Source: a virus
Direction: 5' to 3' (one strand)
DNA: 36,045 nucleotides
IMG/VR virus record: IMGVR_UViG_3300030118_002802
Span: 1 to 36,045 of that record
Below, in pieces: positions 1 to 35,486 of the stretch (position 1 is its first letter; each line of letters opens with the position of its first letter). The position numbers were made by a program, and so were the translations under genes. The notes beneath the pieces are model-generated. The model was not told the origin of the DNA, made no database searches, and was given only the letters and a program-made list of their open reading frames with translations.

Positions 1-2562
1 TATTTGTTTTTTAAACTTTGGTTTTCTTAAAAAGCCTTTTGTTTTATTTACAGCTCCTAAAGTTATTCTTTCACTTAAAACTTCACCAATACCAGTTAGT
101 GAAGCGTTTGTAAACATACTTGCCATACTGTGATCTGCGCCATACAAACCTCCAGAAGTATAATATAATTCTTTTTCTTTTTGCAATTGATCAAATTTAC
201 TTCCAACGCTACTAGCTCCTAAAAAATACAAACTAGTACCACCAGTAGCATACATTAAAGCAAGTTGAGGCACTTGAGCTGATATTAAATTAGTAGCCCA
301 CCTTAAACCACTTCCAAAACCATCTACATCATCAAAGGCTATAGGTTTTCTTATAACGTTTGTTATAGAGTTTGCTTGCCAATTATCTAACTTGTTTGAA
401 GTTCTATCAAAAAGACTTTCACTTAAACCTGTTGCTTCGTTTACATATTCATCTTCAAACAACATACCACCGCCAAGAGTAGCAGTAATAGCTATAGCTT
501 TTGACATTTCAGCATAAGGTGGTGGTAATAGATCTGTAAGTGAATCTAAACCTGACCAAATTGTATCAGCAAAACCAACAACTCCTTGAGCTAGATCTAT
601 AGCGTTATTAGCTAAGTTAGCAAAAACTTCTGTTACATAACCTGGGTTTCTATTAGCAGCTCTAAACAAAGCTGTTAAATCATCTTCTCCTTCTCTTATT
701 TCGTTTAGACTAGCAAAAAAAGAATCAGACAACTCTTTATAGTCATCAATTTTTCCTGCTAAAACTTTTCTAGTATCTAAAGCAGTATTAAAATCCTGCA
801 TTTTTTCAGATATGATTCTGTTAGCCTCGTCAACCTCTTCTTGCGTTGTGTATCTACCATCTTTAATAGACTCTATATCTTCTCTTAAATTAGATAAGGT
901 TTTATCTATTTCTTTAACACTTTCAATAACATTATTACGATCCTGATTTAACTGTGTTATTTTACCAACTATGTCTGTTGATTCTTTTTTTATAGACTCT
1001 AACCTGTCTTCAGCTTTTTGAGCAAGTGCTTTTTGTCTTTCTGAAGCAGTAAAAGCTCTCCAACCTTCTGACTCGTCTAAATTTTCTATTATTTGATTTT
1101 CTAAATTTTCAAGTCTTTTGTTTTTTTCAAGCTTTTCAACTATATCACTATACATTTTTATACTAGAAAAATCACCACCAGAGTTATCTACTTGTTCTTG
1201 CAACTCTTCTTCTGTTTCACGTACTATTTTTCTAAAATCATTACTATTTTTTATTTCTATTATTTTTCTATTTATTTCACTATCAGTTAAATCTTTAAAT
1301 GATATATTTTTTTCTTCTAAATATTTATCTAAAGCTAACTCTTGTATAATACCTTTTGCAGCTGTTTTAACTTCTTCATTAGCTTTTGCAATACTATTTT
1401 CGTCATCATAATTTACCATGACTTTTTTAGTATCAATAACTTTATCTATTGGGTTTCCGTAAATATCAGTTGGTTGAACAAGACCTAGTTCTTTTTGAAG
1501 GTCTTGTACTTCTTTACCAAGCTCAAACATGTTCCTTGATCTTTTACGACCATCTATACCATCTATAAGTATACGATTAAAAAAATCATTGGTGTCATCT
1601 GTTGTTTCTTCTACTGTTGAATCTAACCTGCTAACAGCTTTGTCAATTTCTCTATCAACAACATCAAACTCTTTTTCAACTTTTGAATTTACCCAACTTG
1701 TAATTAGTTTTGCTTTTTCCTTATTGCTCATTTCAAACAAACTAAAATCAGCATCTATTTTAAAAGTTTTACTTTCTCCTTTGTGTTTTCCCGACGTTAT
1801 TGTTATTTTAACAGCATCAGTACCACCTATAGCCTCTTCAAACTTAACATTATAACCTTCATATAAACCTCGTAATTTACTAACAGCTTTACCCTCATCT
1901 CTACTAGTTATATCTTCAGTTACTACAGGCTTTTTTTCTTTTATTTTTTTTACGTTAGCTAATTCTCTTGGGCTTTTACCTTCACTTTTATCAACAAGTT
2001 TATCTGATTTTGTTTCTTCTGTTAAAGAAGATTTATAGGTATTTAATTCAGCTTGAGAGTTTTTGTATAATTCTTGATTTTCACCTTTTAAACTCGCTAC
2101 ATCTTGCATGCTTGAGTTTACTTGTTTTATTATTTCAGTGTACTCTGCTAAAGGTTTTGGCTTACCATCTTGATTGAAAAATATTCTTCCACTTAAATAA
2201 TCTTCTTGTGTAATAGGTTGACCGTTAACTACAGCTATAGTGTTTGGATATACGGGTACACCATCAATTTGAGGAAAATCGTAAGATTCCAATATAGAAC
2301 TTTCCGATTTTGATCCCGAAGACGAGCTCTTTGATTTTCGCTCCACGTTCGAGCTTCTCGTGGAGCTTCTTTGGTTTCCCACTCCCATGAGTTTTTTAAA
2401 GTCGTTAATATTACCAGTGTAACCACCACTTGTAAACTCACTAAAAGCATCGTTTAAAGCATCTGGACTGTTAGCCATTAAACTAACAAAGTCTTGTATA
2501 CTACCTTTGTAGCCGCCTTTTACGAAAGCTTCGTAAGCGTCATTTATAGCTTCTTGATTCAT
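1..2562 (-). CDS. Large internal virion-type protein, C-terminus outside window
   Basis: The frame is open for 854 codons from ATG at 2562 to the window edge, so the C-terminus is missing. Residues 7-29 and 37-59 are a tandem repeat with period 30 and core xFxxGGYxGxIxDFxxLM. A Ser/Arg-rich linker follows, then a long charged region with coiled-coil character (about residues 330-590), then a Gly/Ala-rich, more hydrophobic part near the visible end. Its ATG overlaps the upstream stop as TAATG, so translation is probably coupled. As the third and largest of three consecutive genes (222, 406 and over 854 residues), it occupies the place of T7 gp16 in the gp14-15-16 ejection proteins. That role is inferred from order and composition; no lysozyme motif is visible in this part. 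Confidence 0.7.
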   Translation of the reverse strand, partial: MNQEAINDAYEAFVKGGYKGSIQDFVSLMANSPDALNDAFSEFTSGGYTGNINDFKKLMGVGNQRSSTRSSNVERKSKSSSSGSKSESSILESYDFPQIDGVPVYPNTIAVVNGQPITQEDYLSGRIFFNQDGKPKPLAEYTEIIKQVNSSMQDVASLKGENQELYKNSQAELNTYKSSLTEETKSDKLVDKSEGKSPRELANVKKIKEKKPVVTEDITSRDEGKAVSKLRGLYEGYNVKFEEAIGGTDAVKITITSGKHKGESKTFKIDADFSLFEMSNKEKAKLITSWVNSKVEKEFDVVDREIDKAVSRLDSTVEETTDDTNDFFNRILIDGIDGRKRSRNMFELGKEVQDLQKELGLVQPTDIYGNPIDKVIDTKKVMVNYDDENSIAKANEEVKTAAKGIIQELALDKYLEEKNISFKDLTDSEINRKIIEIKNSNDFRKIVRETEEELQEQVDNSGGDFSSIKMYSDIVEKLEKNKRLENLENQIIENLDESEGWRAFTASERQKALAQKAEDRLESIKKESTDIVGKITQLNQDRNNVIESVKEIDKTLSNLREDIESIKDGRYTTQEEVDEANRIISEKMQDFNTALDTRKVLAGKIDDYKELSDSFFASLNEIREGEDDLTALFRAANRNPGYVTEVFANLANNAIDLAQGVVGFADTIWSGLDSLTDLLPPPYAEMSKAIAITATLGGGMLFEDEYVNEATGLSESLFDRTSNKLDNWQANSITNVIRKPIAFDDVDGFGSGLRWATNLISAQVPQLALMYATGGTSLYFLGASSVGSKFDQLQKEKELYYTSGGLYGADHSMASMFTNASLTGIGEVLSERITLGAVNKTKGFLRKPKFKKQI

Positions 2563-26100: not shown

Positions 26101-26354
26101 TCTACTATAACAACGTCTTTTACTGTAATTACATGGTAAAGCTCTTCATTTAAAGTAATACCATGACCAGCATGTTTATCGTAGTATATAGAATCGTTTT
26201 CTTTTATAAAATCTATATTTTCACCAACAGATATTACTTTAGCCTTTAAGTACCTATTGTCTTGATCTAGTTTTTCTGTTAGTATTAAGCCACCTATTTT
26301 TTTAGGCTTTACTTTTTCTTTTTTTATAATTAAATAATAATTAACTGCTTTCAT
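26097..26354 (-). CDS. groES: GroES-like co-chaperonin
   Basis: This 85-residue protein (E. coli GroES is 97) shows YYLIIKKEKVKPKKIGGLILTEK, corresponding to the first strand and mobile loop with the GGIVLT-like tripeptide region (here GGLILT). KAKVISVGENID then follows, and it ends with the barrel-closing strands YHVITVKDVVIVE. The usual roof loop is shortened. It should cap the GroEL ring encoded immediately upstream, with which it overlaps by 14 nt, so the two are co-translated. It probably helps fold a phage virion protein. Confidence 0.85.
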   Translation of the reverse strand: MKAVNYYLIIKKEKVKPKKIGGLILTEKLDQDNRYLKAKVISVGENIDFIKENDSIYYDKHAGHGITLNEELYHVITVKDVVIVE

Positions 26355-27912
26355 CTACTCTTATATTTGAAATTACACAATCAGCTGATATGATAGTTGA
26401 AACAACACTTACAGCGTTTTTAAGTGCTGACTTAGTTACAAGCACTGGATCTATAATACCGTGTTTTATCATATCAACACTTTCACCAGTAACAACATCT
26501 ACACCTAAACCTTTTTCAGGCCTTGGCGCTGTTTGTTCTAGACCAGCGTTATCAAGTATAGTGTGAAATGGAAAAGCTATAGACTCAAGTAGTATTTCTT
26601 CACCTTTGTTTTCTGCAGCTATACTTTGAGAAGCATTTAATAACGCTACACCTCCACCTGGTACAATACCTTCTTGTAAAGCTGCTTTTGTAGCATGTAT
26701 AGCATCTTCTACTCTATCTCTTTTTTCTTTTAGCTCTACTTCAGAGTCAGCACCTACTTTTACTATACCAACACTACCAGAAAGCATAGACAGTCTTGAT
26801 TCCAACATAGTTTTTATAAAACCGTCTTTCTCTTTTTTAATTAGTTTTTCTACTTGTTTTATTCTTTCGTTTAAATCTTCATGGTTTTCGTCATCAATAG
26901 TTAAAACTGTGCTTCTTGTATCTGTTACGCAATAATCTGCTTCTCCTAAATGATCTGGTGTTATCATGTTCATGTCATCACCTAGCTCTTCGTTTATTAC
27001 AGTAGCACCTGTTAATACAGCTAAATCTTCACAAGTATCTTTTTTAGTGTGACCAAAGCCTGGTAAATCAATTATATTTACTTTTATATTACCTTTAGCT
27101 TTATTCATTAACATAGCAGATTTTACTTGTTGAGCAACAGGAGCTACAATAAGCATAGGTCTATTGTTCTGTATAGCATACTCTAATACTATTTGTATTT
27201 TTCTAACATTAGGTATTTCGTCCATACATATTAAAACTAGTGGTTTTTCTAATTCACAAGTTTGATTGTCTGTGTTGTTTATGAAATGTGGTGAGGTTAA
27301 TGGGCATTTTATTTGAACACCATCAACAACATCTACATAAGTATCGTTTGTTTCAGAGTTTTCCATCAAAACAACACCATTTTTACCTACTATATTATAA
27401 GCTTTTGATATTATTTTACCTAAATCAATATCGTTATTACAAGATATAGTAGCTACATTGTCTAACATTTTAGAATCTACTTCTATTTTGTTAGAATCTA
27501 AGTATTCTATTACTTTTTTATAAGCGCTTTGCATACCGTCTTTTATTTCTCTAAGACTATTGTCGCTTGATTTGTTTTTGTAAAAGTTTTTGATTAGTGA
27601 TTCTGCTAAAACTGTAGCGGTTGTTGTCCCGTCACCAGCTTCTTTAACTGTATTTTGTGCAGATTGTTTGATTAAGGTTGCTCCCATGTTTTCAACCGGA
27701 TCATATAAGACTACGCTTTCCGCAACGGTTACACCATCTTTTGTGATTACCGGTTTGCCGCGTCCATCTTCGTATATTACGCATTTACCTCCTGCGCCTA
27801 ATGTGGATTTAACGGCTTTTGCTAGCTTTTCTACGCCAGCTATTACTTTATTTTGCGCTTCCTCGCCAAAATTAAGGTTTTTGACGAGTAAACTTGGTAA
27901 GTTGTACTCCAT
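26341..27912 (-). CDS. groEL: GroEL chaperonin, phage-encoded
   Basis: This 523-residue protein is complete over all three chaperonin domains. ATP-binding and hydrolysis residues are conserved: ITKDGVTVA with Asp59 (E. coli Asp52), GDGTTT at 93-98 with Asp94 (Asp87), and VEDAIHATKAA with Asp403 (Asp398), followed by PGGG at 418-421. The apical domain has PLTSPHFIN where E. coli has YLSPYFIN, so substrate and GroES-facing aromatic residues are changed. The flexible Gly-Gly-Met tail is missing; the protein ends IRVDESS. It pairs with the overlapping groES. Phage GroELs are known from a few large and marine phages and probably fold capsid or tail proteins. Confidence 0.93.
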   Translation of the reverse strand: MEYNLPSLLVKNLNFGEEAQNKVIAGVEKLAKAVKSTLGAGGKCVIYEDGRGKPVITKDGVTVAESVVLYDPVENMGATLIKQSAQNTVKEAGDGTTTATVLAESLIKNFYKNKSSDNSLREIKDGMQSAYKKVIEYLDSNKIEVDSKMLDNVATISCNNDIDLGKIISKAYNIVGKNGVVLMENSETNDTYVDVVDGVQIKCPLTSPHFINNTDNQTCELEKPLVLICMDEIPNVRKIQIVLEYAIQNNRPMLIVAPVAQQVKSAMLMNKAKGNIKVNIIDLPGFGHTKKDTCEDLAVLTGATVINEELGDDMNMITPDHLGEADYCVTDTRSTVLTIDDENHEDLNERIKQVEKLIKKEKDGFIKTMLESRLSMLSGSVGIVKVGADSEVELKEKRDRVEDAIHATKAALQEGIVPGGGVALLNASQSIAAENKGEEILLESIAFPFHTILDNAGLEQTAPRPEKGLGVDVVTGESVDMIKHGIIDPVLVTKSALKNAVSVVSTIISADCVISNIRVDESS

Positions 27913-30331: not shown

Positions 30332-30389
30332 AAACCGTAACTTTTTATAGGGCCCCCATGTTTATTCTTATATTTCCTACATATTTTTA

Positions 30390-30418
30390 CAAAATTAATA
30401 CTACTACATTTCGATAAT
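30390..30418 (+). promoter_or_regulatory. Early promoter motif, copy 1
   Basis: CAAAAT-TAATAC-TA-N9-GATAATA. The gap between the -35-like CAAAAT and GATAAT is 17 bases. It lies 47 bases upstream of the 31-residue gene at 30466. Confidence 0.7.
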
Positions 30419-30465
30419 ATATTTGTAAGTAATTTAAAAAATTCTAATAACTAAAAAAAATAATT

Positions 30466-30561
30466 ATGAAAAACTTTGAAAACATTTTAAACTTCGTTTA
30501 CATAACTTCAAACATGTATTTGTTTTACTACACTGCAGTGACTATCATTTCACAAATGTAA
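30466..30561 (+). CDS. 31-residue microprotein
   Basis: MKNFENILNFVYITSNMYLFYYTAVTIISQM: a short, hydrophobic, aromatic-rich peptide, possibly membrane-associated. It has a promoter motif upstream and an A-rich Bacteroidetes-type leader ending AAAAAAAATAATT before its ATG. Its stop codon falls in promoter motif copy 2. No family recognised. Real by context, but small enough to be chance. Confidence 0.45.
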   Translation: MKNFENILNFVYITSNMYLFYYTAVTIISQM

Positions 30562-30581
30562 TACTACAAATGTTAGATAAT
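30553..30581 (+). promoter_or_regulatory. Early promoter motif, copy 2
   Basis: CAAATG-TAATAC-TA-N9-GATAATA with 17-base spacing. It overlaps the stop codon of the 31-residue gene and is followed directly by 49-bp element copy 2 (3 bases later), which could therefore act as an operator for this promoter. Confidence 0.65.
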
Positions 30582-30583
30582 AA

Positions 30584-30632
30584 TAGTGACAATAGCAAGT
30601 TACTAATGTTTACTTAATTAGCAAATGTCACA
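30584..30632. repeat. 49-bp element, copy 2
   Basis: TAGTGACA (30584-30591), 34 bases, TGTCACA (30626-30632): the same ends and spacing as copy 1, 378 bases away. It starts 3 bases after the GATAAT of promoter copy 2, where the transcript start would be, which suggests repression of that promoter or an origin-linked transcript. Confidence 0.65.
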
Positions 30633-30687
30633 CAATTGCATAACGAGAAAAGCGGCGGAATACTTGTACACTATAAATAATAACTAA
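30625..30687 (+). CDS. Possible 20-residue microprotein
   Basis: ATG at 30625 opens MSHNCITRKAAEYLYTINNN. It is the only sizeable reading frame downstream of promoter copy 2 before promoter copy 3, and its start lies in the right arm of the 49-bp element. No A-rich leader is clear. This may be chance; alternatively the transcript is non-coding. Confidence 0.2.
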   Translation: MSHNCITRKAAEYLYTINNN

Positions 30688-30705
30688 ACAAAATATATAC
30701 TTTTA

Positions 30706-30734
30706 CAAAACAAATACTAATAACAATAGATAAT
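30706..30734 (+). promoter_or_regulatory. Early promoter motif, copy 3
   Basis: CAAAAC-AAATAC-TA-N9-GATAATA with 17-base spacing, 16 bases before the ATG of the 79-residue gene at 30751. Confidence 0.75.
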
Positions 30735-30750
30735 ATAAATAAAAAAAGAT

Positions 30751-30990
30751 ATGAACAAAATTAAAACAAATCAACTACAAATAATTAAATTAAATAATAA
30801 AACTTATTTACCTTATCAACTACACCAATTACCTAAATTTTATAATAAAAGTTTAGACCAATTTAACTTAAAAGGTTATTGTTATATTTCACTCGAAGAT
30901 ATACAAGAAAATTCACCATATTTTAACTTAAAAAAATTCAAAGAAACTTTAGTATTTCACAAAACATATTCTAGTAAAAATCATAGATAA
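30751..30990 (+). CDS. Early protein of unknown function
   Basis: This 79-residue protein is rich in Lys, Asn, Leu and Tyr with no recognised motif: KTYLPYQLHQLPKFYNKSLDQFNL in the middle, basic end. It has its own promoter motif 16 bases upstream and another right after its stop, so it is a single-gene transcription unit. As the first clear early gene it could be a host-takeover protein; that is a guess from position only. Confidence 0.6.
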   Translation: MNKIKTNQLQIIKLNNKTYLPYQLHQLPKFYNKSLDQFNLKGYCYISLEDIQENSPYFNLKKFKETLVFHKTYSSKNHR

Positions 30991-30992
30991 TA

Positions 30993-31021
30993 CAAAACAA
31001 ATACTAACACTAACAGATAAT
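30993..31021 (+). promoter_or_regulatory. Early promoter motif, copy 4
   Basis: CAAAAC-AAATAC-TA-N9-GATAATA with 17-base spacing, starting 3 bases after the previous stop codon and ending about 35 bases before the ATG at 31057. Confidence 0.75.
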
Positions 31022-31056
31022 AATAATAAATGTTTAACTAAATAAAATTAATAACT

Positions 31057-31284
31057 ATGTCAAATTTAAAATCAAAAAGATTCGTAGTGAGAAAGTCACT
31101 AGTCGGTAAAAATCAAACAATTGAAGTAACGTTCAAAAACGGTAATCAAGTAACTTATAATCACGATAAAGTATTCAATATCATGAAAGATACACTAACA
31201 AAATTACCATGTTTTGAAAAGTATGGAAGTTATACTGCAACGAATAATATTCCAAAAGTACTAAGAGATAAAAAATTAGTATAA
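31057..31284 (+). CDS. Small basic early protein of unknown function
   Basis: This 75-residue, basic protein has a strand-rich first half (RFVVRKSLVGKNQTIEVTFKNGNQVTYNHDKVF) and a helical second half. The first half could be a small beta fold, but I do not recognise a family. A promoter motif precedes it and its leader is A/T-rich (AAATAAAATTAATAACT). The stop overlaps the start of the next small gene as TAATG, so the two are translated together. Confidence 0.6.
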   Translation: MSNLKSKRFVVRKSLVGKNQTIEVTFKNGNQVTYNHDKVFNIMKDTLTKLPCFEKYGSYTATNNIPKVLRDKKLV

Positions 31285-31400
31285 TGAATAAACAAAAGTT
31301 CGTACACTACACTATGATGACGTTTTGTTATAGTGTAGGAGTAGGCACAGCAGGTGCAATAGTGTTTACTCTGTGTACAATATTCAAAATGTACCTATAA
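31284..31400 (+). CDS. 38-residue membrane microprotein
   Basis: MNKQKFVHYT is followed by a hydrophobic segment (about residues 11-38, including VGVGTAGAIVFTLCTIF), which should form one membrane helix with the N-terminus basic. The start overlaps the previous stop (TAATG). Single-helix proteins of this size in phage early regions often act on the host membrane or block superinfection; that role is a possibility only. Confidence 0.55.
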   Translation: MNKQKFVHYTMMTFCYSVGVGTAGAIVFTLCTIFKMYL

Positions 31401-31414
31401 TATAGTCGATAAAT

Positions 31415-31445
31415 ACTACATGTGAAGTGCTGATTAGCATGTAGT
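31415..31445 (+). other. Hairpin with 8-bp perfect stem
   Basis: ACTACATG (31415-31422) pairs with CATGTAGT (31438-31445) across a 15-nt loop. No U-run follows, so it is not a standard terminator. It starts the 169-base non-coding stretch that ends with the tRNA-like arm at 31498-31545. Confidence 0.5.
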
Positions 31446-31497
31446 GACTGTGCTCGTAGTTCCACTTGTTTAGCGAGTTATAAAAAATGCGAATGAG

Positions 31498-31545
31498 TAT
31501 CAGTAGTGATGGTCTGCAATGTGAGTTCGATTCTCACGCTACTAC
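31498..31545 (+). ncRNA. tRNA-like 3' portion: perfect T-arm and partial acceptor
   Basis: GTGAG-TTCGATT-CTCAC (31521-31537) is a flawless T-arm with the TTCRANY loop and G53-C61 pair. The following GCTACTA pairs with CAGTAGT (31501-31507) in 6 of 7 positions. TATCA/TGGTC at 31498-31502 and 31510-31514 could form a 4-5-bp anticodon-type stem around loop GTAGTGA. No D-arm or proper 5' acceptor strand is found, so it is not a complete tRNA. It may be a tRNA remnant, a tRNA mimic or the phage half of an attachment site. Confidence 0.5.
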
Positions 31546-31569
31546 TAATATGTGTAAAAATTATAAGAA

Positions 31570-31716
31570 ATGAAATTAATAATGAGAAAGATAGGTGGAC
31601 TTTGGATAGTTCAGTGTAGCAATAGTAGTCAAATATTCTTTTCACATAAGAGTATGATGACAACTTACAAGAAGCTAACACAAATCAAATACGAGAGTGG
31701 TAAGATAATAATATAA
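31570..31716 (+). CDS. 48-residue early protein
   Basis: MKLIMRKIGGLWIVQCSNSSQIF begins a small, basic, strand-like protein of unknown function. The ATG follows an A-rich leader (AAAAATTATAAGAA) a few bases after the tRNA-like arm. Its 3' end (31681-31716) contains promoter motif copy 5, which drives the next gene. A second in-frame Met four codons in is an alternative start. Confidence 0.5.
   Translation: MKLIMRKIGGLWIVQCSNSSQIFFSHKSMMTTYKKLTQIKYESGKIII
31681..31709 (+). promoter_or_regulatory. Early promoter motif, copy 5, inside a coding end
   Basis: CAAATC-AAATAC-GA-N9-GATAATA with 17-base spacing, overlapping the last 12 codons of the 48-residue gene and ending 18 bases before the ATG at 31728. 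Confidence 0.7.
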
Positions 31717-31727
31717 AATTATAAGAT

Positions 31728-31991
31728 ATGAAGAAGAAAGATTACAAAATAACACCAAAAGAGTTTAGTTTTGGCACTAGTTTTCACGTTGAAGTATGGG
31801 ACGACTATGGCAACTACTGTGGTGTTTATGAACAAAGCAAAGAAGATGCTTGGAAATTTATCTATGATTACTGGTCTAAGTCAGAAGAAAATCAAAGACA
31901 TAAAGAATCATTAAGCAAAGCAATACAAAGTTGTATTAAATTAGATAAAGAAGCAGGTATATTAACTGGAAATAGAGATGGATTAGATTAA
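31728..31991 (+). CDS. Early protein of unknown function
   Basis: This 87-residue, charged protein has a strand-rich first half (FSFGTSFHVEVWDDYGNYCGVYEQS) that could be a small beta sheet, and a helical second half with AWKFIYDYWSKSEENQRHKESLSKAIQSCIKLDKEAG. I know no family. The next gene starts 1 base after its stop. The promoter motif 18 bases upstream makes it the head of a two-gene unit with the 71-residue protein. Confidence 0.55.
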   Translation: MKKKDYKITPKEFSFGTSFHVEVWDDYGNYCGVYEQSKEDAWKFIYDYWSKSEENQRHKESLSKAIQSCIKLDKEAGILTGNRDGLD

Positions 31992-31992
31992 A

Positions 31993-32208
31993 ATGAAAAC
32001 AATGAAGTGTATAACAGTACTAGATTTTGAAACAGGAAAAGTACATCAATATGAAGTAATGAGACAAGAAGGTTGGAATCCTGACTCTGAAAGTATAGAA
32101 GATTTTTTAGAGAGTGTAGGTCACAATACAAACAACTGCGAGTGGATGGTGCATAGTGATTCTGAAATAGTTAGCAGAAAATCACAGTGGACAAGATTTA
32201 CAAAATAA
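31993..32208 (+). CDS. Early protein of unknown function
   Basis: This 71-residue, acidic protein contains KCITVLDFETGKVHQYEVM followed by an Asp/Glu-rich helix (DSESIEDFLESVGH) and a Trp/Ser-containing end. The layout resembles small phage beta-alpha proteins that carry an EDFLES..H motif, but no function is known. It is coupled to the 87-residue gene. Confidence 0.55.
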   Translation: MKTMKCITVLDFETGKVHQYEVMRQEGWNPDSESIEDFLESVGHNTNNCEWMVHSDSEIVSRKSQWTRFTK

Positions 32209-32229
32209 ATACGATAGTACAAAGATAAT
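32201..32229 (+). promoter_or_regulatory. Early promoter motif, copy 6
   Basis: CAAAAT-AAATAC-GA-N9-GATAATA with 17-base spacing. It overlaps the stop of the 71-residue gene and ends 19 bases before the ATG at 32249. Confidence 0.75.
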
Positions 32230-32248
32230 ATAAATAAAATTAAATAAT

Positions 32249-32710
32249 ATGTATAAAAATGAAGAAGAATATGAGTTCTTTACACAAAAACTGTGTAAAT
32301 GTGGCGATATAATACCTGAAGGCAGAGTTAAACTTGGTTATAAAGTATGTGTGCAGTGTTCTACTGTAGAGCAATATGGCTGCGTACCAATAACTTATCA
32401 CAAAACTGGCAACTCGATTCAAATAATGTCGAGCAAAGATGCAGCTACTATAGCTAAGTTAACTCGCCGAAAAGGTTATGGTACAATGTTAGGTGTATTT
32501 TTATCACTTGTAACGTTGTCATCTTGTGTTATTTTACCTAAATCTCACAAGCAAAATGAGCTAGATAAAGCTTTAGACAAGAATTATCTTGAGTATATAC
32601 ACAAAAGAGACTCTTTATTGTTAGAATATAAAAAATTAAAGACTAAAAAAGATGAAATAGACGAGTTTTATTCAGCTTATGATTGTGAAAACTGTGATGA
32701 AATAGACTAA
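32249..32710 (+). CDS. Zinc-ribbon (DksA/TraR-like) domain fused to a lipoprotein-like tail
   Basis: Residues 16-37, CKCGDIIPEGRVKLGYKVCVQC, form a Cx1C-x15-CxxC zinc site as in the short DksA/TraR-like proteins of phages. The adjoining HKTGNSIQIM and TRRKGYGTML are the conserved C-terminal part of that family, which normally ends there. Here the frame continues with a hydrophobic stretch (81-92), a lipobox LSSC with Cys93, and a charged coiled-coil tail of 60 residues ending CENCDEID. An internal ATG (residue 80, position 32486) could start the lipoprotein separately. Zinc-ribbon members modulate RNA polymerase; lipoproteins with coiled coils recall outer spanins. The union is odd; fusion or nested gene are both possible. 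Confidence 0.6.
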   Translation: MYKNEEEYEFFTQKLCKCGDIIPEGRVKLGYKVCVQCSTVEQYGCVPITYHKTGNSIQIMSSKDAATIAKLTRRKGYGTMLGVFLSLVTLSSCVILPKSHKQNELDKALDKNYLEYIHKRDSLLLEYKKLKTKKDEIDEFYSAYDCENCDEID

Positions 32711-32714
32711 AACA

Positions 32715-32743
32715 CGAAATAAATACGAACACTAATAGATAAT
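32715..32743 (+). promoter_or_regulatory. Early promoter motif, copy 7
   Basis: CGAAAT-AAATAC-GA-N9-GATAATA with 17-base spacing, 5 bases after the previous stop and 11 bases before the ATG at 32755. Confidence 0.75.
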
Positions 32744-32754
32744 ATAATAAAAAT

Positions 32755-33246
32755 ATGAATGTAAAAGAAGCATTACAACTACTTGATATTCAAGAAGTTA
32801 CAACGTCAAGGCAAAAGAAAAATGGTACAAGAGAGTTTAAGTTACCAGTAAAAGACCAATATGGCGGCGAAATACATGTAGCTAGTTTTGCTAGTGGTTA
32901 TGTGAGACGTACTAAAGCAGGTGGATATTGTCCAAGTTGGCAACTAAACAAAAGAGTTGAAAGCGAACCACAATACTATGGTCCATTTGAAAATGGTATG
33001 TACAGAAAATATACTACAAGAACTTGTAAATTAATACTAGATGAGCAAGAAAGATTAGAATACTTAATAAGCTTTTGTCTCAAAAACTATTACATTGGTC
33101 AAGCTAACAGGTTGTCAAGCGGTGAGTTTATACCTAAATGGAAACATGAGGACGAAATAAAACGAACTAAAGAGTTACATGTTTGGCAAGAAGAGCCAGA
33201 AGTAAAAGTAATTATTAATGGTCATAGATACAATATAACACCATGA
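32755..33246 (+). CDS. Early protein of unknown function
   Basis: This 163-residue protein has an N-terminal helix (VKEALQLLDIQEV), then alternating strands with many aromatic and basic residues (GYVRRTKAGGYCPSWQLNKR, YYGPFENGMYRKYTTRTCKLILDEQERLEYLISFCLKNYYIG). The mixed alpha/beta pattern could be an enzyme or nucleic-acid-binding fold, but no known motif is seen. Its stop overlaps the start of the next gene by 4 nt (ATGA). It heads the unit that runs into the structured RNA region. Confidence 0.55.
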   Translation: MNVKEALQLLDIQEVTTSRQKKNGTREFKLPVKDQYGGEIHVASFASGYVRRTKAGGYCPSWQLNKRVESEPQYYGPFENGMYRKYTTRTCKLILDEQERLEYLISFCLKNYYIGQANRLSSGEFIPKWKHEDEIKRTKELHVWQEEPEVKVIINGHRYNITP

Positions 33247-33389
33247 AACTAACAAACAAGCACAAAAAAGCTGTCAAAAGGCGAGTAGATCTCGAGCAAG
33301 GTGTGAGACCACCAGGCAGCTATGTGTTTGTTAACAAAAAGAAATACAATAGAAAGTTTAAACATAAAAAAATATGGAAACATTTTTAA
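33243..33389 (+). CDS. 48-residue highly basic microprotein
   Basis: MKLTNKHKKAVKRRVDLEQG followed by VRPPGSYVFVNKKKYNRKFKHKK: about 40% Lys/Arg/His, so it probably binds nucleic acid. No family is known. It is coupled to the upstream gene by ATGA and overlaps the next gene by 16 nt. Confidence 0.5.
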   Translation: MKLTNKHKKAVKRRVDLEQGVRPPGSYVFVNKKKYNRKFKHKKIWKHF

Positions 33390-33523
33390 CGTTTGGCGCT
33401 GGTTTAGCTTTTGGTTTATACCTTTGTAGTCAAATAATGAGCTATGTAGAGTCAAATATACAAGATAAAAACTTAAAAAAGAACTTAGAAGAGTTTGATA
33501 AAAACAATAAAAACGACAGGTAG
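33374..33523 (+). CDS. 49-residue membrane microprotein
   Basis: METFLTFGAGLAFGLYLCSQIMSYV forms one likely membrane helix, followed by a charged tail (DKNLKKNLEEFDKNNKNDR). The topology resembles small phage membrane proteins with a soluble helical tail. It starts inside the previous gene (16-nt overlap) and is the last gene before the GC-rich non-coding block. Confidence 0.5.
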   Translation: METFLTFGAGLAFGLYLCSQIMSYVESNIQDKNLKKNLEEFDKNNKNDR

Positions 33524-33536
33524 TGCACTAGTAGGA

Positions 33537-33866
33537 GTCTTCTAGACACGCTCTGAAAGGCACTAACCCTCGTTTAAAAAAATACGAGGTAAGGGTGGTA
33601 GCGCGTGAGATGTGTAGACTGGTGGCATTAGTCCCACGAGGCAGTCGTCGTAAGAAGCTTAAGACATTGCTTACAGATTGGTCATCTTACACTATAATTT
33701 GTTCATTTAGGACCATTGAGTGTGTACTCACTTGGCAGAACGGCAGGATAAAGCAGATATAAACGAGGCGTATGTGATGCCGACTATCGACGGATATAAG
33801 CGAGCGACGGAAGTGTATTACGCTGACAGATGTTTATACGAACCACACCTGCCCGGCCTCGTTTTT
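33537..33866 (+). ncRNA. GC-rich structured RNA candidate
   Basis: No gene occupies 33524-33919. The block is about half G+C, against an AT-rich surrounding, and contains many local stems: CACGC/GCGTG (33547-33551 with 33603-33607), CCTCGT/ACGAGG (33568-33573, 33584-33589), GACTG/CAGTC enclosing GTGG/CCAC (33617-33646), GTAAG/CTTAC (33650-33674), TGGTC/GACCA (33679-33715) and TGAGT/ACTCA (33717-33730). The 3' part has TATAAAC/GTTTATA (33758-33764, 33832-33838) inside GGCAGG/CCTGCC (33742-33747, 33848-33853). It ends in a U5 run. It matches no RNA family I know (not RNase P or tmRNA by conserved cores). The gene order suggests it is transcribed on the plus strand. Confidence 0.6.
33762..33866 (+). 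terminator. Alternative terminator-type stem of the structured RNA
   Basis: AACGAGGC (33762-33769) can pair perfectly with GCCTCGTT (33856-33863), followed by TTTTT (33862-33866). It shares bases with TATAAAC/GTTTATA and crosses GGCAGG/CCTGCC, so it is either an alternative fold or a pseudoknot. It probably marks the 3' end of the RNA; promoter copy 8 begins 2 bases later. Confidence 0.5.
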
Positions 33867-33867
33867 A

Positions 33868-33896
33868 CAAAATGAATACGAATAAAGCAAGATAAT
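33868..33896 (+). promoter_or_regulatory. Early promoter motif, copy 8
   Basis: CAAAAT-GAATAC-GA-N9-GATAATA with 17-base spacing, directly after the U-run of the structured RNA and 23 bases before the ATG at 33920. Confidence 0.75.
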
Positions 33897-33919
33897 AATA
33901 ACAAATAAAATTAAATAAC

Positions 33920-34312
33920 ATGCAAGAACTTGAAAACAAAAAAGCTGCGTTAGAGCTTTTACAAAACGAAACTAACGAAAAACTAAATGATTATAAGCAA
34001 CAAATATCTATATTACAAAAACAAATAGATGACTACAACAAGCCAGCATTGACACCAGCTCAAATAGATGCTGTGTATAAAGCTATCGAAGACGCTGTTG
34101 AAGGCTTTAACTTTGATGATACAGAAAATTATGAAGTTGAGTTTGGTATGGAATATGATGGTAAAGTACATTTAGAAACTATTGATTTACAGTGTGCTTA
34201 CGAGCTAACCGACCAAATAGTTAACTCTGTGATGAAATTATTTAAAGAAGCTGATTGTCCTGAAGACAAAGAAGCTGAAGAATTAAGTGATGAATTAAAT
34301 AAAGCACAATAA
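33920..34312 (+). CDS. Acidic coiled-coil early protein
   Basis: This 130-residue protein has a helical coiled coil at residues 1-40 (LENKKAALELLQNETNEKLNDYKQQISILQKQI as one heptad-type stretch), then TPAQIDAVYKAIEDAVEGFNFDDTENYEVEFGMEYDGKV, an acidic helix-strand region, and an acidic C-terminal helix. The strongly negative charge could mimic DNA, but there is no specific evidence. Promoter motif and A-rich leader (AAATAAAATTAAATAAC) are well placed. It heads a multi-gene unit. Confidence 0.6.
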   Translation: MQELENKKAALELLQNETNEKLNDYKQQISILQKQIDDYNKPALTPAQIDAVYKAIEDAVEGFNFDDTENYEVEFGMEYDGKVHLETIDLQCAYELTDQIVNSVMKLFKEADCPEDKEAEELSDELNKAQ

Positions 34313-34313
34313 T

Positions 34314-34595
34314 ATGAAATTAACTAGTAAAAAAGTAAAAGAATATATGAAATACAGGACAGATGAAACGTTTAAACACTGTCCAAAAGCTACAGCGGCA
34401 GCTTGTAATGACATGGCAAATAAGTTTAAAAATGAATTTACAGCGCCTAAAATAAAAGCAATAGACTTTATGAAGCTACTGTATTTTAACGACCCAATAC
34501 CTGAGCTACATACACATAGCTATGGCTTTCACACGGCAACAGGTAGGCACATTATAGAAACATTAAAAATGAAATATTATGAAAACGAAAAATAA
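34314..34595 (+). CDS. Early protein of unknown function
   Basis: This 93-residue basic protein starts 1 base after the previous stop. It is mainly helical: KVKEYMKYRTDETFKHCPKATAAACNDMANKFKNEF, then a middle with LLYFNDPIPELHTHSYGFHTATGRHIIETLK. The His-rich HTHSYGFH could bind metal, but this is not part of a family I know. It overlaps the following gene by 17 nt. Confidence 0.55.
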   Translation: MKLTSKKVKEYMKYRTDETFKHCPKATAAACNDMANKFKNEFTAPKIKAIDFMKLLYFNDPIPELHTHSYGFHTATGRHIIETLKMKYYENEK

Positions 34596-34827
34596 TTTAC
34601 CAAATTGGTTTAATGGCACTATATATCACGAAGGTAGTGAAGTGCAAAATAGGTTTGGCGGTGACAGTTGCTACTTAAATAAGTACGAGCTTAGTATGTA
34701 TGACTTTGTTATAGGTGCTAGCACGTGTTATGATTTAGGTATACCTGTTAATGTTGATGAGTTAAGAAAAGGCTTGGACTGGTTTAAACAACATAATCCG
34801 TCTGCTTACATGATCTTACTAGATTAA
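34579..34827 (+). CDS. Conserved phage protein of unknown function
   Basis: This 82-residue protein has a strand-rich start (LPNWFNGTIYHEGSEVQNRFGGDSCYLN) and LNKYELSMYDFVIGAS, followed by a helical end (VDELRKGLDWFKQHNPSAYMILLD). The LELSMYDF-type segment and final FKQHNPSAYMILLD recur, as I remember them, in several cyano- and marine phages. No function is assigned. Overlaps the previous gene by 17 nt; the next starts 1 base after its stop. Confidence 0.6.
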   Translation: MKTKNNLPNWFNGTIYHEGSEVQNRFGGDSCYLNKYELSMYDFVIGASTCYDLGIPVNVDELRKGLDWFKQHNPSAYMILLD

Positions 34828-34828
34828 T

Positions 34829-34912
34829 ATGGAATTAATAATATTACACATGCTATTTCTATTACTATTTTTTGTATTAGAGTGGCAAGAATCAAACGAA
34901 AAATTTAAATAA
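34829..34912 (+). CDS. 27-residue membrane microprotein
   Basis: MELIILHMLFLLLFFVLEWQESNEKFK: one hydrophobic helix (residues 3-17) and a short charged tail. It fills the space between two coupled genes (1 base on each side), which supports it being real. Function unknown. Confidence 0.45.
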   Translation: MELIILHMLFLLLFFVLEWQESNEKFK

Positions 34913-34913
34913 T

Positions 34914-35336
34914 ATGGCAACAAGAGCATTAATTAATTTTGTTGAAAGAAAAGATAAAGTATCTTTCAGCGAACATCCAGGTGTGGATAAAATACACATA
35001 CAAATATATAATCACTATGATGGTTACCCATCAGGGTTAGGTGTGACATTAGCCGATTATCTACAAGATTTTGTAGTAGTTAATGGGTTAAGTACTGGTC
35101 AAGGAAGAGTGGCTAACGGTGTAGGTTGTTTAGCAGCTCAAACAGTCCAATATCTAAAAGAAGGACCAGGTAATATATACTTACACAAACCAAGTGAAAA
35201 AGACTGGGAAGACTATGAATACTTTATATGGTGCAAAGAAGGTCATGGTGTATGGATAAGTATTTTTGACTATGAAGGTGAATGTATATTTGTAGGCGAA
35301 CCAAGTGATCTTATAACTAAATACCAAGAACAATGA
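34914..35336 (+). CDS. Conserved phage protein of unknown function
   Basis: This 140-residue protein begins MATRALINFVERKD and contains YNHYDGYPSGLGVTLADYLQDF, ANGVGCLAAQTVQYLKEGPGNIYLH, and DYEYFIWCKEGHGVWISIFDYEG. This is the signature of a widespread family in phages of many hosts whose function is unknown. The fold is probably a compact alpha/beta domain. It starts 1 base after the membrane microprotein and overlaps the lipoprotein gene by 4 nt. Confidence 0.7.
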   Translation: MATRALINFVERKDKVSFSEHPGVDKIHIQIYNHYDGYPSGLGVTLADYLQDFVVVNGLSTGQGRVANGVGCLAAQTVQYLKEGPGNIYLHKPSEKDWEDYEYFIWCKEGHGVWISIFDYEGECIFVGEPSDLITKYQEQ

Positions 35337-35446
35337 AAAAACTAATAACCTTTTTAATTATAGCTTTTTTATTATCTTCGTGTGCTAGTAGTAAATACTA
35401 CAAAGGCTGCGATGGTAAAAGAAAGTTTAGAACAAACATGCATTAA
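35333..35446 (+). CDS. 37-residue lipoprotein
   Basis: MKKLITFLIIAFLLSSCASSKYYKGCDG: a classic signal peptide with a lipobox (LSSC, acylated Cys17), leaving a mature peptide of 21 residues with a basic end. The size and lipobox fit outer-spanin (Rz1) proteins or small superinfection-exclusion lipoproteins, though its location away from the holin argues for the latter. Its ATG overlaps the upstream stop (ATGA). Confidence 0.6.
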   Translation: MKKLITFLIIAFLLSSCASSKYYKGCDGKRKFRTNMH

Positions 35447-35448
35447 CG

Positions 35449-35477
35449 CAAAACAAATACGAAAGATGACAGATAAT
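35449..35477 (+). promoter_or_regulatory. Early promoter motif, copy 9
   Basis: CAAAAC-AAATAC-GA-N9-GATAATA with 17-base spacing, starting 2 bases after the lipoprotein stop and ending 9 bases before the chosen ATG at 35487. Confidence 0.7.
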
Positions 35478-35486
35478 AAATTAAAA

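Follow-up and report, generated by a model that had tools for sequence, protein, structure and literature searches.

Phage-encoded sigma factors that redirect the host RNA polymerase are known from T4 (gp55) and SPO1 (gp28 and gp33/34). The FliA/sigma-28 promoter has the form TAAAGTTT-n11-GCCGATAA (PMC2859248), and the primary sigma factor of Bacteroidetes reads promoters of the type TTTG / TAnnTTTG (PMC6847099). We analysed bases 1-36045 of the 63,574-base viral record IMGVR_UViG_3300030118_002802 (this whole stretch is referred to as the window). The genome resembles T4 and SPO1 in combining a gene of the sigma-70 family with a dedicated class of putative promoters on phage genes, a likeness of description. 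Whereas the T4 and SPO1 promoters are located on late genes, those found here lie on the replication/takeover arm, and their upstream block spans -38 to -22. With FliA/sigma-28 the locus shares a small sigma factor, a GATAA core in the -10 element and an A-rich start of the -35 element, but the sequence similarity is weak, the motif has no GCC before GATAA, and its upstream block is different and longer; GATAA and the A-rich start are all that TTACAAAcTAAATACGA-N9-GATAATA has in common with the FliA form. The presumed host phylum is the one in which the Bacteroidetes consensus was described, yet host-type promoters are not enriched in the arm and, in agreement with the original prediction, neither TTTG nor TAnnTTTG is present in the motif (PMC6847099). 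Two features recall crAss-like phages (PMC10136315, PMC8375218), namely the two-arm layout of the genome and a muzzle-like protein weakly similar to crAss, but here a sigma factor and no polymerase was found.

The ends of the record have a repeat of roughly 100 bases in common, except for the last base, and one giant reading frame continues in frame across them, so that the genome looks complete and circularly assembled. Among the minus-strand genes are those for terminase, portal, structural proteins, GroEL and the muzzle-like protein, whose crAss match is under the Pfam cut-off. The plus strand carries, from 30.4 kb, many small genes leading to genes for a ligase, an HTH protein, a sigma factor, ERF, an exonuclease-like protein, a primase-helicase, thymidylate synthase, MazG and ribonucleotide reductase. 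Relatives of TerL are found in Flavobacterium, Cellulophaga, Tenacibaculum and Maribacter phages, and the host is therefore probably a member of the Bacteroidetes. The giant late protein (~3250 aa) results from joining 1-2562 (-) to record 56276-63574 (-), in frame over the contig ends, and its consensus contains a HAD-like FDFDET stretch. MW202828 encodes a related giant protein of 3859 aa, 31% identical to its counterpart in this genome, and a structural gene of similar size is annotated in elemoA. The phage-encoded GroEL (26341-27912, minus strand, late arm) is likewise present in elemo phages and MW202828.

Nine copies of the motif had been predicted in the window, and all nine are exact matches at 30390, 30553, 30706, 30993, 31681, 32201, 32715, 33868 and 35449; in 9/9 cases GATAAT is separated by exactly 11 bases from AATAC and by 17 bases from the CAAAAY-like hexamer. 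This number holds for the window and is too low beyond it, as the genome contains ten copies, the tenth matching at 41612, and relatives contain several hundred. The predicted promoters are:

30387..30425, plus strand: promoter copy 1, upstream box from -38, -10 GATAATA at 30413-30419, predicted +1 G30425, 31-aa ORF at 30466
30550..30588, plus strand: promoter copy 2, -10 at 30576-30582, predicted +1 G30588 (inside the second palindrome, see below), no ORF directly behind
30703..30741, plus strand: promoter copy 3, -10 at 30729-30735, predicted +1 A30741, ORF 30751
30990..31028, plus strand: promoter copy 4, -10 at 31016-31022, predicted +1 A31028, ORF 31057
31678..31716, plus strand: promoter copy 5, -10 at 31704-31710, predicted +1 A31716, ORF 31728
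32198..32236, plus strand: promoter copy 6, -10 at 32224-32230, predicted +1 A32236, ORF 32249
32712..32750, plus strand: promoter copy 7, -10 at 32738-32744, predicted +1 A32750, ORF 32755
33865..33903, plus strand: promoter copy 8, -10 at 33891-33897, predicted +1 A33903, ORF 33920
35446..35484, plus strand: promoter copy 9, -10 at 35472-35478, predicted +1 A35484, ORF 35487; among the upstream copies the closest to the ligase, HTH and sigma genes
41609-41647, plus strand: promoter copy 10, outside the window in the same record coordinates

Eight of the nine copies in the window are located 8-46 bases upstream of a reading frame (from the end of GATAATA to the ATG). The doubt raised about a frame behind copy 2 was justified, no ORF following it until 30751, which sits behind copy 3. 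The full pattern occurs nine times on the plus and never on the minus strand of the window, and ten times on the plus strand of the record; its absence from the opposite strand of the whole record bears out both the proposed strand restriction and the proposed lack of copies in the minus-strand late arm. The full pattern was found 0 times when the early arm was shuffled 300 times with dinucleotides preserved, and the loose AATAC-N11-GATAAT occurred 0.03 times on average (maximum 2) versus 10 times in the actual sequence. A loose match at 61106 was discarded as a chance match, its motif-matrix score lying below even the low scan cut-off of 10. The late strand shows no GATAATA signal (236 versus 233 in the control).

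A pattern scan over 2.9 million viral contigs matched at least 118 stretches, and the fetched loci were scored with a matrix built from this genome's ten copies (cut-off 20), giving many more sites, nearly all on one strand per locus, and 0 in reversed sequence at this cut-off. From the related viral contigs among the matches listed we collected 502 distinct copies with the consensus TTACAAAcTAAATACGA-N9-GATAATAwAAtR, the conservation of which is partly due to selection, as the motif positions were used for finding the sites. This selection made no use of TTA (-38 to -36), the A/T-rich bases following GATAATA or position 36. Essentially all 502 sites have a purine (A 0.50, G 0.50, C and T 0.00) at position 36, 12 bases past the G of GATAAT, and most have a pyrimidine before it (position 35, also outside the scoring matrix: T 0.68, C 0.12). 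With position 36 set as +1, CAAA begins with its C at -35 and GATAAT spans -12 to -7, so that the sites show features of sigma-70-type promoters, namely the -10 hexamer GATAAT, A at -11, T at -7 and a purine at the seventh base after the hexamer. Compared to the textbook -10 element TATAAT, GATAAT retains A-11 and T-7, the only difference being at -12. Because the purine occurs at a fixed distance of 12 bases although it was not used for site selection, GATAAT is the predicted -10 element (-12 to -7) and the conserved purine the signature of the predicted transcription start. The motif core proposed originally is thus correct, whereas its extent was underestimated: the conserved block is longer, starting with TTA at -38, and the conserved +1 purine had been overlooked.

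The gap between AATACGA and GATAATA is N9 in 201 cases and N8 in 2, other gaps tried being found 0 times, as was N9 in the reversed control; the spacing ACAAA-N19 occurs 244 times. An ATG frame starts within 60 nt downstream of 88% of the sites, compared to 45% of random points, with a median leader of 14 nt, and at 72/502 sites the ATG coincides with the predicted +1, which may yield leaderless messages. In a literature search that covered few subscription journals, we found neither the motif nor the sigma factor described.

The sigma gene is located as follows:

record 37365-38105: sigma-70-family protein, 246 aa, same arm as the motif, outside the window, Pfam regions 2 and 4

The protein matches sigma region 2 (PF04542, 27.2 bits, cut-off 24, also matched by PDB profiles) and the helix-turn-helix of region 4 (PF04545, 33.4 bits, cut-off 24.1), as well as the PHROG sigma factors (2.5e-22). 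Its best full-length profile match in the PDB is FliA/sigma-28 (1rp3, 3.3e-12), an almost full-length alignment covering residues 28-243, the middle part of which is poorly matched and modelled with low confidence. Comparison of the predicted model with solved sigma factors gave a probability of 1.00 and an E of about 1e-5. By sequence and predicted fold the protein is a member of the sigma-70 family, and binding to core RNA polymerase and initiation are its predicted functions. The suggestion of a polymerase or sigma factor specific to the phage thus stands as far as a phage factor is concerned, a sigma-70-family protein being encoded in the same arm, and gains no support for a special polymerase, as sequence searches, which divergent polymerases can escape, found no phage RNA polymerase. 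Homologues of the sigma factor are encoded in motif loci (E down to 1e-86) and in most whole records with the motif; in the bacterial/archaeal genome collection they are limited to nine stretches from metagenome-assembled genomes, including a phage-sized 63-kb contig, and cultured phages yielded no close match to either the sigma or the HTH protein. In one relative (L100:1149-1902, minus strand) the sigma gene is split into two pieces, reflecting an error or decay.

Like the motif, its fixed spacing, its one-sidedness, the start-purine signature and the sigma gene, the co-occurrence of sigma and motif is observed directly in the sequences. The motif is present in 28/28 records with the sigma gene, and the nine motif records lacking sigma are cut, their motifs heading towards the contig end. 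Eight complete relatives or near-relatives (MW202828, elemoA, phi38:1, phi46:3, phi18:3, Calle_3, Gundel_1 and phi10:1) have no sigma and no motif above control; these motif-free complete relatives are all outside the sigma/motif clade (TerL identity 64% or less, 64% for MW202828). When loci were retrieved from viral contigs by sigma alignment, the motif not being used, 64/80 contained it, with 273 sites on the sigma strand, 1 on the opposite strand and 0 in the reversed control. Most of the 16/80 sigma loci without motif comprise little sequence upstream of sigma, and five with about 8 kb upstream have retained GATAATA behind a box that is altered or weaker, the constancy of the -10 element against a varying box being partly built into the search, which was anchored on GATAATA. 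The variant box before GATAATA is GTTGACACGA in L254 (e.g. TTGACACGA), ACAAACAAAATAATA-like in L277, L250 and L286, and CGGACTTAATA-like in L281; L250, whose sigma is intact, has only two similar sites in this search. L264, with weak variants, has GTTTGACACGA in common with L254, though their sigma factors are only 67% identical. A distance-based co-variation test of sigma region 4.2 against the upstream box gave a rank r of 0.19 (p 0.05), compared to 0.28 for the neighbouring exonuclease, and sigma and motif may have been inherited jointly in one clade, neither reading the other.

We propose, with a probability of roughly 0.83, that the motif is a promoter read by the host core RNA polymerase together with the phage-encoded sigma-70-family factor. 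GATAATA would be recognised as -10 element by sigma region 2, and the 17-bp TTACAAAcTAAATACGA block (-38 to -22) would serve as an extended -35 element contacted by region 4 and possibly more of sigma, with initiation at the purine 12 bases past the G of GATAAT. Sigma as reader and the start point, like autoregulation and the part played by the HTH protein (see below), are what we infer from these features. The ten promoters would drive small plus-strand units of the replication/takeover arm, including the one encoding sigma, and since the sigma gene is downstream of copy 9 the circuit is probably self-reinforcing. The first supply of sigma would have to come from elsewhere, i.e. from a weak host-read promoter, read-through or sigma in the virion; upstream of the arm, host-type promoters show no enrichment. 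As the sigma gene itself lies downstream of these promoters, the arrangement suggests a delayed-early or middle mode of control if the virion does not deliver sigma, "early" being a reading of gene position. A classical -10 preference of the phage sigma, as opposed to the host TAnnTTTG, would keep phage transcription apart from that of the host.

The HTH gene adjacent to sigma and the palindromes associated with it are:

record 36748-37368: HTH gene, 206 aa, stop overlaps the sigma ATG by 4 bases, C-terminal helix-turn-helix
30208..30253: imperfect palindrome GTGACA...TGTCAC, 46 bp, in the divergent intergenic region between the arms
30586..30631: second palindrome copy, covers the predicted start of promoter copy 2
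record 36711-36754: third palindrome copy, outside the window, over the HTH start codon

The HTH gene usually overlaps or adjoins the sigma gene, and its predicted model has no fold match in the PDB at E 0.001 or better. In at least 39/77 cases its start codon lies inside an imperfect palindrome of ~45 bp consisting of TGTGACAatAGCCTgTTAcTa and its inverse, and palindromes were counted 120 times in motif loci versus 3 times in the control. They are absent from L234 and L285, which contain sigma and no HTH gene, and from the scanned stretches of MW202828 and elemoA. The HTH protein thus probably binds the ~45-bp palindrome, a putative operator, as a regulator, and not the motif. Promoter copy 2, at the head of the arm, may serve as a regulated start, and the palindrome over its start may explain why no gene is located directly behind it. 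The predicted transcript of promoter 2 is not more stably folded than shuffled sequence (z -0.36); we therefore rejected an RNA hairpin and read the palindrome as a DNA site.

It is unlikely that GATAATA is read by a host sigma on the host RNA polymerase while the 206-aa HTH protein acts as activator via the AAATACGA box. Such an activator would be in keeping with the HTH gene upstream of sigma in 77/80 loci and with the position of AAATACGA, where sigma-70 normally has no base contacts. However, L234 and L285 keep AATACGA-N9-GATAATA without an HTH gene (both are fragments, and the gene could be elsewhere), making the protein an unlikely reader of the AATACGA box, a better candidate site is the palindrome at the HTH gene's own ATG, missing from exactly these two loci, and the Bacteroidetes primary sigma reads TAnnTTTG, not GATAAT (PMC6847099).

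Quite unlikely, too, is a virion-packaged phage RNA polymerase of the crAss-like or N4-like kind that is injected with the DNA and reads the motif as early promoter. CrAss-like phages use such an enzyme for their early genes (PMC10136315; PMC8375218), and both the weak crAss match of the muzzle-like protein and the giant late protein of ~3250 aa would fit it. Yet no DFDGD-type motif was found and the giant protein has no polymerase match in Pfam, PHROGs or PDB sequences, a search that divergent polymerases can escape, and it or a gene of similar size is present in MW202828 and elemoA, both without the motif. Moreover, the -12/-7 element with its purine start fits a sigma-70-type holoenzyme, and the consensus has no inverted repeat of the N4 hairpin kind. 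The strict repetition on one strand, mostly between genes, might also suggest that the element is no promoter and serves as a repeated site for binding or replication or as a leader signal in RNA; this is highly improbable given the -10 element, the start purine and preceding pyrimidine at fixed distance, and the location 8-46 bases before genes, in an orientation fixed towards them in hundreds of loci.

Transcription by core polymerase and the phage sigma would amount to a transcription programme, concrete and open to testing, that applies to a large group of uncultured phages, with the start of hundreds of transcripts predicted to the base and each promoter set paired with its sigma. Sigma-70 does not usually contact DNA at the position of the conserved -28 to -22 box. 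To a more specific version we give slightly less than even odds: sigma alone would read a continuous 17-bp extended -35 element (-38 to -22) at strictly invariant spacing to a GATAATA of sigma-70 style, forming an orthogonal system in a widespread lineage of uncultured phages of Bacteroidetes, a phylum with a TAnnTTTG-reading sigma of its own, with the HTH partner exerting control via the 45-bp palindrome. If true, the contact between sigma and DNA at the -28 to -22 box would be of a new kind, and the natural variants of the upstream box offer a way to probe sigma-DNA recognition beyond the usual contacts. For Bacteroidetes, in which E. coli promoters do not function, promoter and sigma might be developed into a compact orthogonal expression pair.

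RNA families and tRNAs were sought in the motif region and none were found. A short stretch without clear gene (31420-31560), in which ARAGORN calls no tRNA, contains 'gtgagttcgattctcac', which resembles a tRNA T-arm. A second such stretch, at 33525-33865 directly before promoter copy 8, has no match in Rfam and tRNA searches; it is richer in G+C, lies between ORFs without a convincing reading frame of its own, and is possibly a noncoding RNA.
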